Source: Moritella yayanosii | GTDB lineage: Bacteria; Pseudomonadota; Gammaproteobacteria; Enterobacterales; Moritellaceae | Direction of reading: 5' to 3' | Length of the DNA stretch: 64,000 nt | Assembly (NCBI RefSeq): GCF_900465055.1 | Contig: NZ_LS483250.1 | Location: forward strand, 2,170,001 to 2,234,000 | Part shown: positions 3,488 to 52,146 of the stretch, piece after piece | Layout of the letters: every line of letters begins with the position of its first letter | How positions within the stretch are numbered: the first letter of the stretch is position 1 | Translations under genes and position numbers: made by a program | The notes under the pieces: generated by a model | Seen by the model: the letters and a program-made list of their open reading frames with translations, nothing else | The model's database searches: none | Told to the model about the DNA's origin: nothing

Positions 3488-3715
3488 TTAATTAATAAAA
3501 TTAGATTCAAACATACGCCCTAACTTGCTTGCCTTGGTTTTAAGGTAACCTGCTTGTAACGGCACGCGTTCGGCAATATTGATATCCGCGTTCGTTTGCT
3601 TCGACAGTATCGGCACCGTCATCTTGTAAGTGATAAGCTCTGCTCTTATTCAGCAAACCAATACCAAGGCTAAGTGCTCTTTACCCGGGGCGTGCTCGAT
3701 AAAACCATTCATCTA
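3488..3715 (-). pseudogene. ribA: Decayed RibA (GTP cyclohydrolase II) half of a NADAR-RibA fusion
   Basis: Read on the minus strand, the NADAR frame ends with AKLPTKFGTF. It then has a TAG (3713-3715) and continues in the same frame with [17 protein letters not shown]. Together these match the normal N-terminus of RibA around one stop. The sequence next jumps frame to [20 protein letters not shown], which corresponds to RibA near residue 130. It jumps again to [18 protein letters not shown] and reaches a natural RibA C-terminus ending at 3488. Two deletions of very roughly 95 and 60 codons have therefore removed the zinc-cysteine/catalytic core. Multiple lesions make sequencing error unlikely. 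A working ribA must exist elsewhere in the genome. Confidence 0.88.
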
Positions 3716-4219
3716 AAATGTGCCGAATTTAGTCGGTAACTTTGCACTATCAACATAACTGACAAGATTATACGGCGCTTGTGATGCTAACTGATGACGT
3801 ACATCCATTAATATTTTACCAAGTTCATTACGCCCCTGACCATCACCACCGTCGCCCCAATACGCGTCTTTATGGGAATGTTCTGTTAATACTTGTTCAC
3901 CCGTCGCAACAAGTTGGTAGGCATAAAATGGATTCTGACTAAATTTTGCCATCACGACATCACGCATGACACCGTCACGTACTGCCACCCAGTCCGATTT
4001 GACCAATGGTGCATACTCTCGACTTAAACTAAAAGCTTCATCTGATGTAGAGGCTCTGCGAATGAGGCTCTGTAATTGTGGATCATTGAATTTTTGCGCT
4101 TGATAAAAATGCTCACTGCTCGGCCATACAACGCCGTCGAGCTTAATTGCTGCGAGCGCAAAATTTGACAAAAAACCAAAATCATCATTTGGTTCATAAA
4201 ACTGTATTTCATCTATCAT
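3713..4219 (-). CDS. NADAR (YbiA/COG3236) N-glycosidase domain protein, remaining half of a RibA fusion
   Basis: 168 residues, the length of E. coli YbiA (about 160). Family motifs are visible: FLSNFA near 14, WPSSEHFYQAQKF near 33-45, and YWGDGGDGQGRNELGKILMDVR near 120-142. Characterised members hydrolyse the N-glycosidic bond of the first, reactive riboflavin-pathway intermediates (products of RibA and the RibD deaminase), acting as overflow and damage control. The domain is known in natural fusion to RibA in some vibrios. Here the RibA N-terminus (AKLPTKFGTF) is still attached at the C-terminus before the stop. GGAG lies 8 bases before the ATG. The domain itself looks intact, so it probably still functions alone. 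Confidence 0.88.
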   Translation of the reverse strand: MIDEIQFYEPNDDFGFLSNFALAAIKLDGVVWPSSEHFYQAQKFNDPQLQSLIRRASTSDEAFSLSREYAPLVKSDWVAVRDGVMRDVVMAKFSQNPFYAYQLVATGEQVLTEHSHKDAYWGDGGDGQGRNELGKILMDVRHQLASQAPYNLVSYVDSAKLPTKFGTF

Positions 4220-5165: not shown

Positions 5166-6140
5166 CTATTTTCTAACACTTAACCAGACAATAGCAACAA
5201 TTACCATCGACATACCTAAAAAATGGAAAATAGTGAATGCTTCATCCAGTAAAAACACCGCCATTAACGCAGTTAATACTGGGCCGCTGCCCCCCACAAT
5301 CGAGGCTTGCTCTGGCCCCACTCTGGCAATGGCTTCACTCATTAAAAAAGAAGGGATCACAGTACAGCCAATCGCCAACCACAGTGATATCCAAAATACT
5401 GGCATAGGTATGCTTAGATCGGCGACATCATGCACAATTGAAAAATGCACAAAGATCATAAAACTGGCGCCAAACATGGCAATACAGGTAAACACTAAAC
5501 TGCCTAGCATTTGGATCTTATTTTTACTAAACAACAAATAACAGGCAAACGTAAAGCACGCGGTTAACACCAGCAAGGATCCTGTTATCACGCCCTCCCC
5601 TTGTTTACCCAAGTCATGATAAAACAGTACAAAAACCCCCGCATAGGCCAAGATAAGTGCACCTATCACTTGTCGATTAATACGGTTACCCAATACCAAC
5701 CAGCTGAGGATCACTACGATTGTTGGGTAGGTAAATAACAGTAACCGTTCTAGCTGTGAACTAATATGGTTAAGTCCTTGCAGATCAAAATAACTGGACA
5801 AGTAATAACCTAAAAGACCAATGCCCATCACCGGCATAAACTGTGCTTTTATCGGTGATTTTAATGCCGGTTTTTTTCTTATCATCCACACAAATACGGC
5901 GATATAAAAAGGCAGCGACAAGAGCATGCGATACGTCATTAACGTGATGCTATCGATCCCATATTGATAAGCCAGTTTAATGAAAATACCTTTTGTCGAA
6001 AACAAACAGGTAGCAAAAAATGCACACAGCAGACCAATTTTATGAGCTGATAATCTATCGCGTAGCGCTGAGCGAATAGTACGTTGCTTTGTGCTATTGG
6101 TAGTACTGGTGCTATTACTGGTGATAGTAGTCTGTTCCAT
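5166..6140 (-). CDS. EamA/DMT family transporter (probable metabolite exporter)
   Basis: 324 residues: a Thr/Ser-rich cytosolic N-terminus of about 33 residues, then ten hydrophobic segments forming two EamA repeats. GGAGGGG precedes the ATG. DMT proteins export amino acids, purines or other metabolites. The substrate cannot be read from the sequence, but the upstream leader gene rich in Tyr, Phe and Trp codons hints at aromatic amino acids (inference). The 93 bases between the leader stop and this start contain hairpins that could act as an attenuator. Confidence 0.85.
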   Translation of the reverse strand: MEQTTITSNSTSTTNSTKQRTIRSALRDRLSAHKIGLLCAFFATCLFSTKGIFIKLAYQYGIDSITLMTYRMLLSLPFYIAVFVWMIRKKPALKSPIKAQFMPVMGIGLLGYYLSSYFDLQGLNHISSQLERLLLFTYPTIVVILSWLVLGNRINRQVIGALILAYAGVFVLFYHDLGKQGEGVITGSLLVLTACFTFACYLLFSKNKIQMLGSLVFTCIAMFGASFMIFVHFSIVHDVADLSIPMPVFWISLWLAIGCTVIPSFLMSEAIARVGPEQASIVGGSGPVLTALMAVFLLDEAFTIFHFLGMSMVIVAIVWLSVRK

Positions 6141-6181
6141 GACCCCTCCAAGATAAAATGAAGGCTAGGAATAAGTAGAAT

Positions 6182-6250
6182 AAAACAGATAGCAGACTAC
6201 AGATCCCGTAGCCTCGCCAAAATTAGTTAGCTGCTACTCTGGTTTCCAGA
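6182..6250 (-). promoter_or_regulatory. Candidate attenuator: two mutually exclusive hairpins before eamA
   Basis: On the minus strand TCTGG-AAA-CCAGA (6238-6250) forms a small hairpin inside the leader gene. The downstream copy CAGAGTAGCAG (6231-6241) can instead pair with CTGCTATCTG (6186-6195) with one bulged G, followed at once by TTTTATT, as in an intrinsic terminator. An inner CTAC/GTAG hairpin sits at 6197-6211. The two main structures share CCAGA, so only one can form at a time. The complementarity is visible; attenuation itself is inferred. Confidence 0.5.
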
Positions 6251-6296
6251 ACAGCCATAAACGAATAATAAAGTAAGCGCGAAAATAAATTGTCAT
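6234..6296 (-). CDS. Aromatic-rich 20-residue leader peptide upstream of eamA
   Basis: A short open frame of 20 codons plus TAG. Its ATG at 6296 is preceded by AAGGTAAGGGTG at a good Shine-Dalgarno distance. Seven of the 20 residues are aromatic (Y4, F5, Y8, F9, W14, F16, W17) and two are Arg. Such a codon bias, a good ribosome binding site, and the overlap of its last codons with the arms of competing hairpins resemble amino-acid biosynthesis leader peptides (trpL, pheL). I do not recognise a described homologue. It might instead be a small membrane peptide. Confidence 0.55.
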   Translation of the reverse strand: MTIYFRAYFIIRLWLFWKPE

Positions 6297-6489
6297 TAGT
6301 ATTCACCCTTACCTTGATCTAAAGTTAAGATTCATCATGACAGTTACCATAATATTGAACAAGCTCATAATTTTGATAAGCAGCGAATCAATATAAATGC
6401 TCACTTTAGCGCGAGGGTTAACTTTTATATAGTAAAAATATAGCGATAAACAGGATAGATTTAATTATGTATTACTCAATAGACGCGGC

Positions 6490-49616: not shown

Positions 49617-50948
49617 TTAAATTGCTATACCTTGCTCTCGCATTGCTACCATTTTGTAACGCAACGCTCTCGTGGTTACACCTAGTGCTGCAGCGGTTTT
49701 CATTCTATGCCCTTTAAATTGTTTTAATGTATCTAAAACATATTGGTACTCTGCCCTTTTTTTAGTTGATTCCAATCCTTCAGATTGGTGAATAATTTTC
49801 AGCGCCGTTTTCTTTTCATTTAACTGCGCTGGCAGCATTAAATCTGCCACTTGTATTTCCATACCTCGAGCAATAATGAGAGCCCGTTGAATTACATTTT
49901 CTAATTCACGAACATTACCAGGCCAAGCATGTCCTAATAACATCAATGTGGCAGCACTACTCATGAAATAATTAGGCGTTGGCGCATACTTACGAATGAA
50001 GAACTCCGCGAGAGGCAGGATGTCATCTTTACGCTCTCTCAACGCCCCGCATTGCAAAGGTAATACATCTAATCGGTAATACAAATCTTGACGGAACAGA
50101 CCTTTTTCAACGGCCTCTTGCAAATTTTTATTTGTTGCAGCGATAATACGAATATTAAGCTTGATTTTTTTATTACTACCGAGCCGTTCAACTTCACGTT
50201 CCTGAATCACTCGCAGTAACTTAGCTTGTAATTGCAATGGAATTTCAGCAATTTCATCTAACATGATGGTGCCATTATTGGCGAGTTCAAACTTCCCCAC
50301 CAGCTCACTCGTTGCACCGGTATAGGCCCCCTTTGTATGACCAAATAGCATGGCTTCAATCATCGATTCAGGCATGGCTGCGCAATTGAAAGCCACAAAC
50401 GGCCCATCTGCACGCGGAGAATGTGTGTGAATATAGCGAGCCAACAACTCTTTACCAGTGCCCGATTCGCCTCGGATCAATACAGTTGCATCGGTTTGTG
50501 CAGCACGATGTGCGAGTTGCACAACCTGACGGCTTTCAGCCGAACAAAGAATAAAATCATCCATTGGTTTGCGTAAGCTCTCAGCTCGCTTTATCGCTTT
50601 AATCAACTGGTAATCAGAGAATGGTTTCAGTAAATAATCCGCAGCACCTACTACGATCGCCTCAGCAGCAAGTTCACATTGACTACTTTTCACCATTACG
50701 ATGATAACGGTGTCAGGGTGATTACGAGAGAAGACATTCACAAAACTAACTAATGACATATCAGCTAATTCGGCATCGACGAGAACAACGGCTGGTGATA
50801 ACGTCGAGGCATTTAATAAAGCGTCGTCAGCATTCAGACAACGATGTACGACATAGCCTTGTTGTTCTAACTCTTTGCTATCAAGTCTCGTTACTGAAGG
50901 AGATTCGAGGATCAATAACATATTATCTTGTTCATGATTAGCCGACAT
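49617..50948 (-). CDS. lafK: Sigma54-dependent lateral flagellar regulator LafK
   Basis: 443 residues: receiver-like domain (1-120), AAA+ (about 130-360) and Fis-type helix-turn-helix (KTAAALGVTTRALRYKM). Walker A is GESGTGKE (160-167), and the sigma54 contact loop is GAYTGA (207-212), a known variant of GAFTGA. In the receiver, D58 and K108 are present. The acidic pair that binds magnesium is replaced by E-S-P (ILESPS), so phosphorylation is doubtful. This fits FleQ/FlrA-like LafK, which acts without a kinase. It heads the lateral hierarchy and probably drives the flgB promoter. Confidence 0.93.
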   Translation of the reverse strand: MSANHEQDNMLLILESPSVTRLDSKELEQQGYVVHRCLNADDALLNASTLSPAVVLVDAELADMSLVSFVNVFSRNHPDTVIIVMVKSSQCELAAEAIVVGAADYLLKPFSDYQLIKAIKRAESLRKPMDDFILCSAESRQVVQLAHRAAQTDATVLIRGESGTGKELLARYIHTHSPRADGPFVAFNCAAMPESMIEAMLFGHTKGAYTGATSELVGKFELANNGTIMLDEIAEIPLQLQAKLLRVIQEREVERLGSNKKIKLNIRIIAATNKNLQEAVEKGLFRQDLYYRLDVLPLQCGALRERKDDILPLAEFFIRKYAPTPNYFMSSAATLMLLGHAWPGNVRELENVIQRALIIARGMEIQVADLMLPAQLNEKKTALKIIHQSEGLESTKKRAEYQYVLDTLKQFKGHRMKTAAALGVTTRALRYKMVAMREQGIAI

Positions 50949-50949
50949 A

Positions 50950-51804
50950 TTATTTACCCAACCGACGAATAATACGTAAATTCACGCGTCTATTTTTTTC
51001 ACGACCAGAGGCTGTCCGATCTGATTTTAATGGGTAACGATCGCCGTGAGAGCGCACTTCCATTAGTTTTGTAGGGATACCGGCCTCCATCAGATACATA
51101 TACACATCATCAGCACGTTGTTGTGATAACAATAAATTATTTACTGTATTGCCAATACTATTCGAATGTCCATCGATGAGTATTTTCGTCACTAAACCAT
51201 CAAGAGATATGTATTTAACGATCGCTGCCATTTCTTGTTTTTGTTGGGTATTCAATAAATACGAGCCACCAGAATAATATAAATTCCGGTCTCTTACTTG
51301 CTCATATGAAAAAGGAGATATGTCGCGGAGACATTGATAGTAACCATCAAATACGTCACCTAGATTTACTGAGGGTAGTACTGCATGTATATTGTCGCTG
51401 TCAACATAGGTTAAGGCAATATGTCCCCAATCCCCCTGCTGCAGCTGTCGAGTAAAACTCGCAACACCGACTAAAATTTCATTTTCAAACGGCAAGGCAG
51501 GCCCTAGCCAACGAGGGTCAGGCAGTATTTTAACTCCCCAAGGTGCCTTTGAACTACCAAGCCTATAACGCTTAATTTTTTGTGTATAAATTGTGGATGT
51601 GACGTCGATAAATTCAGGATAGCCCGCTTTCTTAACAATACTAACAGTCCCTAATGTTTCAACATTCGTTGTCATTTTGCACTCAAACGAATTTGAGCTC
51701 AATTGCCATTGCACTTGGTCTAGCTCAGAAATAAAAGGTTGTGCATTCAATATTGAACAAAAAAACAAGCTGCCGGCAGCAGGCAACAAAACCTTTAGAG
51801 ACAT
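50950..51804 (-). CDS. motY: Lateral MotY-like T-ring/OmpA protein
   Basis: 284 residues with an N-terminal signal peptide (LKVLLPAAGSLFFCSILNA), a MotY_N domain (SELDQVQWQLSSNSFECKMTTNVETLGTVSIVKKAGYPEF) and a C-terminal OmpA domain (ILIDGHSNSIGNTVNNLLLSQQRADDVYMYLME). Lateral MotY is needed for the proton-driven stator in vibrios. It is one base from lafK and is the first gene of the motY-lafK-fliE-fliF-fliG-fliH-fliI-fliJ operon. Confidence 0.9.
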   Translation of the reverse strand: MSLKVLLPAAGSLFFCSILNAQPFISELDQVQWQLSSNSFECKMTTNVETLGTVSIVKKAGYPEFIDVTSTIYTQKIKRYRLGSSKAPWGVKILPDPRWLGPALPFENEILVGVASFTRQLQQGDWGHIALTYVDSDNIHAVLPSVNLGDVFDGYYQCLRDISPFSYEQVRDRNLYYSGGSYLLNTQQKQEMAAIVKYISLDGLVTKILIDGHSNSIGNTVNNLLLSQQRADDVYMYLMEAGIPTKLMEVRSHGDRYPLKSDRTASGREKNRRVNLRIIRRLGK

Positions 51805-52146
51805 GATTCCTCACTCACTTACTTAAATCATTTACAGTACAAGATCAACCCAAATGAATACGTTGATGATGATAAGTAGCTCAATAGCGACGTTTAAGTA
51901 ACACTCGATTGACTAGCTTATAAACGTAAAGAAAAAAGCAACAGATGAGGTATTTAGCGGCAAAAAGATAGATCTTCCCCCCGGAGTTAATATTTTCAAA
52001 AAATATAAACAATTTACCTTTTGGCAGTTCCACTATCTGTAATAAAAATACAGATTGGTAACTTTGCGTCCAAACCTCACGATTTGTTTGCCTTTTTACA
52101 GAGGTGCATTTAACAACATCGCAAACCATAAAGCAATTCCAAATAC

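Follow-up and report, generated by a model that had tools for sequence, protein, structure and literature searches.

The window analyzed here, a 64,000-nt stretch of Moritella yayanosii DNA, contains on its reverse strand a gene for an EamA/DMT transporter of 324 aa (5166-6140), identified by the Pfam family EamA (105 bits) and by its orthologues. We presume it to be the regulated gene of the element described below. It is preceded on the same strand by a leader open reading frame of 20 codons (6234-6296), which runs from an ATG at 6296 to a TAG at 6234 and encodes MTIYFRAYFIIRLWLFWKPE, with seven aromatic codons. Codons 12-17 encode a core R-L-W-L-(L/F)-W that is conserved in Moritella. Judging from the sequence, a ribosome-binding site of the AAGGG type (GGTAAGGGT, 6305-6313, reverse strand) probably serves the leader. 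The first-pass annotation of this DNA had described the frame, its aromatic codons and a good ribosome site, and all of these are borne out. A leader frame with a ribosome site is a trait of leuL/trpL-type attenuators. Leader stop and transporter start codon (ATG at 6140) are 93 nt apart, and the functional block extends from the leader to this start codon (about 6310-6140), which is longer than initially annotated.

An out-of-frame reading frame (6223-6258, reverse strand) overlaps the leader. Its product would read MAVLETRVAAN, or MAALETRVAAN in relatives; the frame is open in the inspected Moritella copies and is probably a by-product of hairpin conservation. Near the transporter gene, the window encodes a NADAR-domain protein (3713-4219, reverse strand; Pfam PF08719, 119 bits) with no visible link to it. 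At 52019-52101 of the reverse strand, a match of 61 bits to Rfam RF03167 marks a c-di-GMP-I-GGC riboswitch; downstream of it lie a 284-aa gene (50950-51804) that by eye looks OmpA-like and MotY-like, and a gene for a sigma-54-type regulator (49617-50948).

A 190-nt region at the leader folds better than 200 out of 200 shuffled sequences (z = -3.7), and its pairing can be described with six segments, all on the reverse strand. Segment 1 (TGGCTGTTCTGG, 6246-6257) carries the W-L-F-W codons and is the 5' arm of a leader-end hairpin 1:2, in which 6257-6246 pair with 6242-6228 in the predicted fold; the 3' arm, segment 2 (6228-6242), includes the leader stop. Segment 3 (GAGGCTACGG, 6206-6215) can pair with segment 2, 4 or 5. 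Its alternative helix with segment 2 joins GTAGC (6237-6233) to GCTAC (6212-6208) and is also seen in Vibrionaceae; an arm shared by a small hairpin and a terminator-like stem, as had been noted before, is thus essentially right. The terminator-like stem 3:4 consists of 9 bp (6214-6206 with 6202-6194), with segment 4 (CTGTAGTCT, 6194-6202) as its 3' arm. This stem had been described as ending in TTTTATT. The 9-bp stem stands, but the T run (6185-6179) begins 8 nt past it and is therefore not a canonical terminator tail. Segment 5 (CCTAGCCTTCA, 6159-6169) has two alternative partners: segment 3, as long as the Shine-Dalgarno (SD) sequence has not yet been made, and the SD region itself. The latter is segment 6 (TGGAGG, 6145-6150), the SD of the EamA gene, whose partner in the minimum-energy fold is CCTTCA (6164-6159).

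Seven out of ten other Moritella genomes contain a complete orthologue of the transporter gene, and one further genome contains only the end of the gene at a contig edge. The leader is present in all eight Moritella genomes with a complete gene (M. yayanosii included), and it stays while the gene neighbours differ. The mean pairwise identity of these leaders is 95% over codons 12-20 plus the stop and 70% over codons 1-11. Identity amounts to 91% from the leader end to the transporter start codon and to 52% in the 60 columns upstream of the leader. Conservation of the leader upstream of eamA in related genomes, proposed as a check in the first-pass annotation, thus holds while upstream sequence and neighbours vary. 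The part common to all Moritella leaders is R-L-W-L-(L/F)-W-(K/R)-(P/S)-E. They have between four and seven aromatic residues, with the full set of seven seen only in M. yayanosii, and leaders of other groups have few.

We scanned the regions upstream of transporter orthologues and of more distant homologues for small frames. The same type of leader, with W-L-L followed by a stop a few codons on, is found upstream of orthologous DMT genes in several groups: Vibrio and Photobacterium relatives (e.g., MKFMFTYLWLLLLNACSR), Agarivorans (...KLWLLLISSSGEM), Thiothrix-like bacteria (NRWLLLCVTTQSG), a proteobacterial family, f57 (KLWLLLPLAVV), and the alphaproteobacteria Devosia, Pelagibacterium and Parvibaculum (LWLLG...). 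The leader is missing from many homologues at a greater distance, for instance that of Thiomicrorhabdus. The small-frame filter was passed by 124 loci, a few of them false (L081, L103, L212), and the distance from W to the stop ranges from 7 to 18 codons. A covariance model (R1) was built from a Vibrionaceae-dominated alignment (A4), whose misplaced rows L001 and L111 should hardly affect it. It matched 21 loci in 149 genomes of the order; 20 of these lie beside the transporter gene, and the remaining match is doubtful (E = 0.08, G019). Copies of the element before other genes, sought as a clue to the amino acid, were essentially absent from the matches of this model, and neighbour genes as a clue to the substrate were dismissed, none being consistent across lineages. 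The Rfam covariance models give no credible match at the element, also below threshold, and we found no description of such a leader in the open-access literature.

The helices 1:2, 2:3, 3:4, and 3:5 covary in 57 Vibrionaceae sequences, which answers the call for hairpin covariation made with the original description. The signal is clearest for helix 3:5, with 98.2% of cells paired, 34 double-changed and none of 500 shuffles equal to it; these counts include shared ancestry, so that shuffle counts should not be read as probabilities. Paired cells make up 95.7% in helix 3:4 (47 double changes), 89.7% in 2:3 (20 double changes) and 83.3% in 1:2 (27 double changes), and pairing falls to 17-59% in slid controls. 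In these three helices, pairs changed on both sides are not clearly more frequent than in shuffles of the 57 sequences. The GAG of segment 3 that lies in the loop of 3:4 has segment 5 as its sole partner, and both co-change between lineages (GAG/CTC, GAAG/CTTC, GGG/CCC); helix 3:5 is therefore more than a by-product. Helix 5:6, which hides the SD, also covaries in Vibrionaceae, with compensations such as TAACTCGT/ACGAGTTA and TTTCTCGC/GCGAGAAA. In a duplex test, pairing of the 3:5 type exceeds shuffles in 7 of 7 Moritella, 6 of 6 Agarivorans, 2 of 2 Thiothrix-like, 15 of 17 f57 and 51 of 58 Vibrionaceae sequences. By the same test, helix 5:6 exceeds shuffles only in 33 of 58 Vibrionaceae sequences; neither in Moritella nor in Agarivorans does it rise above chance. 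By covariation, the element has the mutually exclusive helices 1:2, 2:3, and 3:4 of a leuL/trpL-type attenuator. An SD-hiding helix with an alternative that frees the SD, as in translational attenuators, is found in Vibrionaceae and predicted in M. yayanosii.

The W codon is invariant among 41 aligned Vibrionaceae leaders. Positions 1 and 2 of the next codon (W+1) are invariant as well, with position 3 free (0, 0 and 1.62 bits), and W+2 and W+3 behave alike. Since the first two positions of the Leu codons are conserved and the third is free, we infer a translated frame with a CTN box under selection. The CTN share of Leu codons in the leader core is 92-100% in most lineages, compared to 44-58% in the transporter genes; it is 77% versus 47% in f57. 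In alphaproteobacteria, the CTN share is 93% in leaders versus 90% in genes, and that of CTC/CTT (CTY) 87% versus 39%. On average, about 3.8 Leu are present per 10-residue core (83 distinct cores from all lineages), with clear CTN runs in Vibrionaceae. Moritella leaders contain two or three Leu beside two Trp, and the Leu signal is weak in this genus; the L-W-L-F-W of M. yayanosii has as many Trp as Leu.

Several leaders have lost the W at the core and kept the Leu codons, namely L235 (GLLLLLTLLPLGR), L245 (LLTLLLLMLPTGR), L211 (DSLLV) and the alphaproteobacterial L092 and L093, for which reason we favour Leu as the signal. Leaders L161 and L228 (NRWPSFLPVAW and YRWQLSAMPSSR, respectively) keep the TGG and the hairpins with few Leu codons, which speaks against pure Leu sensing, but pairing in helix 1:2 may be what keeps their TGG. 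On balance, we lean towards the view that the element reads Leu codons in Vibrionaceae. Sensing of aromatic tRNAs in general, as suggested at first, does not fit a conserved W-L-L with CTN codons from which some leaders have lost the W. Aromatic richness was rejected as the signal, with Tyr and Phe varying freely across leaders. The leader L225, from a Photobacterium relative, is a natural leader-truncation variant: codon 4 is changed from TCA to TAA, without damage to the W-L-L codons, the hairpins or the transporter.

When Vibrionaceae RNA ending before the SD is folded, helix 3:5 dominates (0.90), and the complete RNA has 3:4 at 0.85 and 5:6 at 0.73. Since 3:5 comes early and 3:4 with 5:6 later, the RNA is predicted to begin with an open SD and to end with a closed one. 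In M. yayanosii, the predicted order is similarly a long 3:5 hairpin and later 3:4 with the CCTTCA-TGGAGG pairing. A stalled ribosome is predicted to lower 3:5 in the pre-SD RNA from 0.90 to 0.75, a small shift. When the ribosome is placed at one codon or another in equilibrium folding, SD accessibility is hardly altered, and the predictions are too weak to fix the sign.

We are confident that a conserved RNA switch controlled by a leader peptide is present here, and it probably acts mainly at translation initiation. In the proposed mechanism, how fast the ribosome passes the CTN Leu codons and the Trp codon would report the level of charged Leu-tRNA and possibly Trp-tRNA. A ribosome on the W-L-L codons would break helix 1:2, making segment 2 a competitor for segment 3. 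With a slow ribosome, segment 3 would be captured by segment 2; otherwise it would stay free and pair with segment 5 during RNA synthesis, by which the SD would be kept open. Failing this, segment 5 would pair with the SD and translation would be off. A slow ribosome is thus predicted to cause a modest loss of 3:5 and less expression. The direction that we favour, although weakly supported, is that smooth translation of the leader (amino acid plentiful) leads to more transporter, which would be the useful direction for an exporter.

The same layout would also suit transcription attenuation, with 3:4 or the longer 3:5 acting as an intrinsic terminator, a stalled ribosome forming 2:3 to allow readthrough, and starvation turning the gene on. 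The competition between 2:3 and 3:4 is a textbook arrangement and covaries, helix 3:5 dominates before the SD is made, the right moment for a terminator, and U-rich bases follow 3:5 in several Moritella (ATTTTATC, ATTTTTTT), where termination may occur. However, a U-tract (6 or more T among the 8 nt that follow 3:4) is seen in only 1 of 57 Vibrionaceae sequences, and 31 of the 57 lack any T-run longer than 2 after segment 5, whereas the leuL and trpL controls of sampled Vibrionaceae, Agarivorans and M. yayanosii itself have canonical tails (6-8 T in 9). With a U-tract in 1 of 57 sequences after 3:4, a canonical terminator was rejected for Vibrionaceae, in which the element lacks the intrinsic terminator with U-tract typical of leuL/trpL-type attenuators. 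Termination would also leave the covariation of 5:6 unexplained, and we regard it as unlikely. The earlier proposal of termination at the TTTTATT stem is not sustained: conservation covers the stem but not the U-tract, and of the alternative pairings the best-conserved one leads to the ribosome-binding site of the gene.

Nascent-peptide arrest has precedents in the TnaC, ErmC and BmrCD leaders. Here, free Trp or another small molecule (e.g., a ribosome-targeting antibiotic) would arrest the nascent W-L-L peptide, and the arrested ribosome would open the start site. Such a logic of inducer excess fits an exporter, W-L hardly varies even between distant groups, with a Trp that is usually single and not tandem as in trpL, and the exporters known to be under leader control are induced by drugs, among them BmrC/BmrD (PMC4191407) and mef(E) (PMC4335068). 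Yet the freedom at third positions and the selection on the CTN box indicate tRNA decoding and not peptide sequence alone, the five leaders without W have Leu runs, and the W-to-stop distance is variable, all of which leaves arrest with little likelihood. An RNA-only switch that binds a protein or ligand, with the small frame being incidental, would account for the 91-95% conservation of Moritella RNA between the leader core and the start codon, and for the intact hairpins of L225 behind its premature stop. It is very improbable given the codon-position pattern, the CTN bias and frames that stay open in more than 100 loci although their N-terminal part varies.

Returning to the ribosome-controlled switch, the claim that a leader and mutually exclusive hairpins precede a transporter gene of the EamA family is supported. 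The chances are about even that the complete reading applies, namely a leader-peptide attenuator that controls the DMT transporter with translation initiation as its main output and that senses ribosome progress over Leu (perhaps Trp) codons. More tentative, and rather doubtful, is an inverted attenuator combining leuL-like Leu logic with the inverter pair 3:5/5:6, in which the exporter would be switched on by amino-acid excess and off by starvation; this would be a widespread, undescribed overflow valve in Proteobacteria. If true, a conserved leader of Leu/Trp codons that serves a DMT transporter across several proteobacterial groups would offer a testable physiological signal and a substrate clue for a poorly characterised family.

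The transporter probably exports amino acids or similar metabolites. Its closest solved structure by sequence is 5i20 (E 3e-7), which we take to be YddG. An orthologue of YddG was ruled out by the NCBIfam model of that protein, which scores 30.1 bits, far under the equivalog cut-off of 300. The aromatic amino-acid exporter YddG shares the DMT superfamily with the transporter described here, and we know of no such leader before yddG.

Biosynthesis operons and drug resistance genes are known targets of leader-peptide attenuation. Translational attenuators of the ermC, cat and cmlA type respond to ribosome-bound drugs via specific arrest peptides. They share with our element a leader peptide and a helix hiding the downstream SD, but the conserved sense codons found here suggest tRNA supply, and the anti-sequester helix 3:5 is additional. 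Export genes under ribosome-mediated leader control include BmrC/BmrD (PMC4191407) and mef(E)/mel (PMC4335068), which encode ABC or MFS drug pumps of Firmicutes with transcriptional, drug-induced regulation and with no sequence relation seen to our element. The trpL and other aromatic attenuators also combine Trp in the leader with alternative hairpins; in the sampled genomes, however, the Trp residues of trpL stand in tandem (ISWWWHIPL, SWWWRTPK) and a canonical terminator is present, whereas the Trp is usually single here and can be lost. The leuL leader of leuABCD in Vibrio and E. coli has the short leader, the CTN Leu run and the competing helices in common with the element, but no invariant Trp. 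The leuL controls (three Vibrio genomes and one other vibrionacean) use only CTN for Leu, with FSILLSLLLIV read in Vibrio, and have canonical terminators. Vibrio leuA has such a Leu-rich leader; none was seen upstream of leuA in M. yayanosii or Agarivorans. In contrast to leuL, with its canonical terminator and downstream biosynthesis genes, the element has no such terminator, possesses the extra helices 3:5 and 5:6 that reach the SD, and precedes a transporter gene. If the proposed reading is true, leuL-type logic has been rewired here from transcription to translation, perhaps with its sign inverted.
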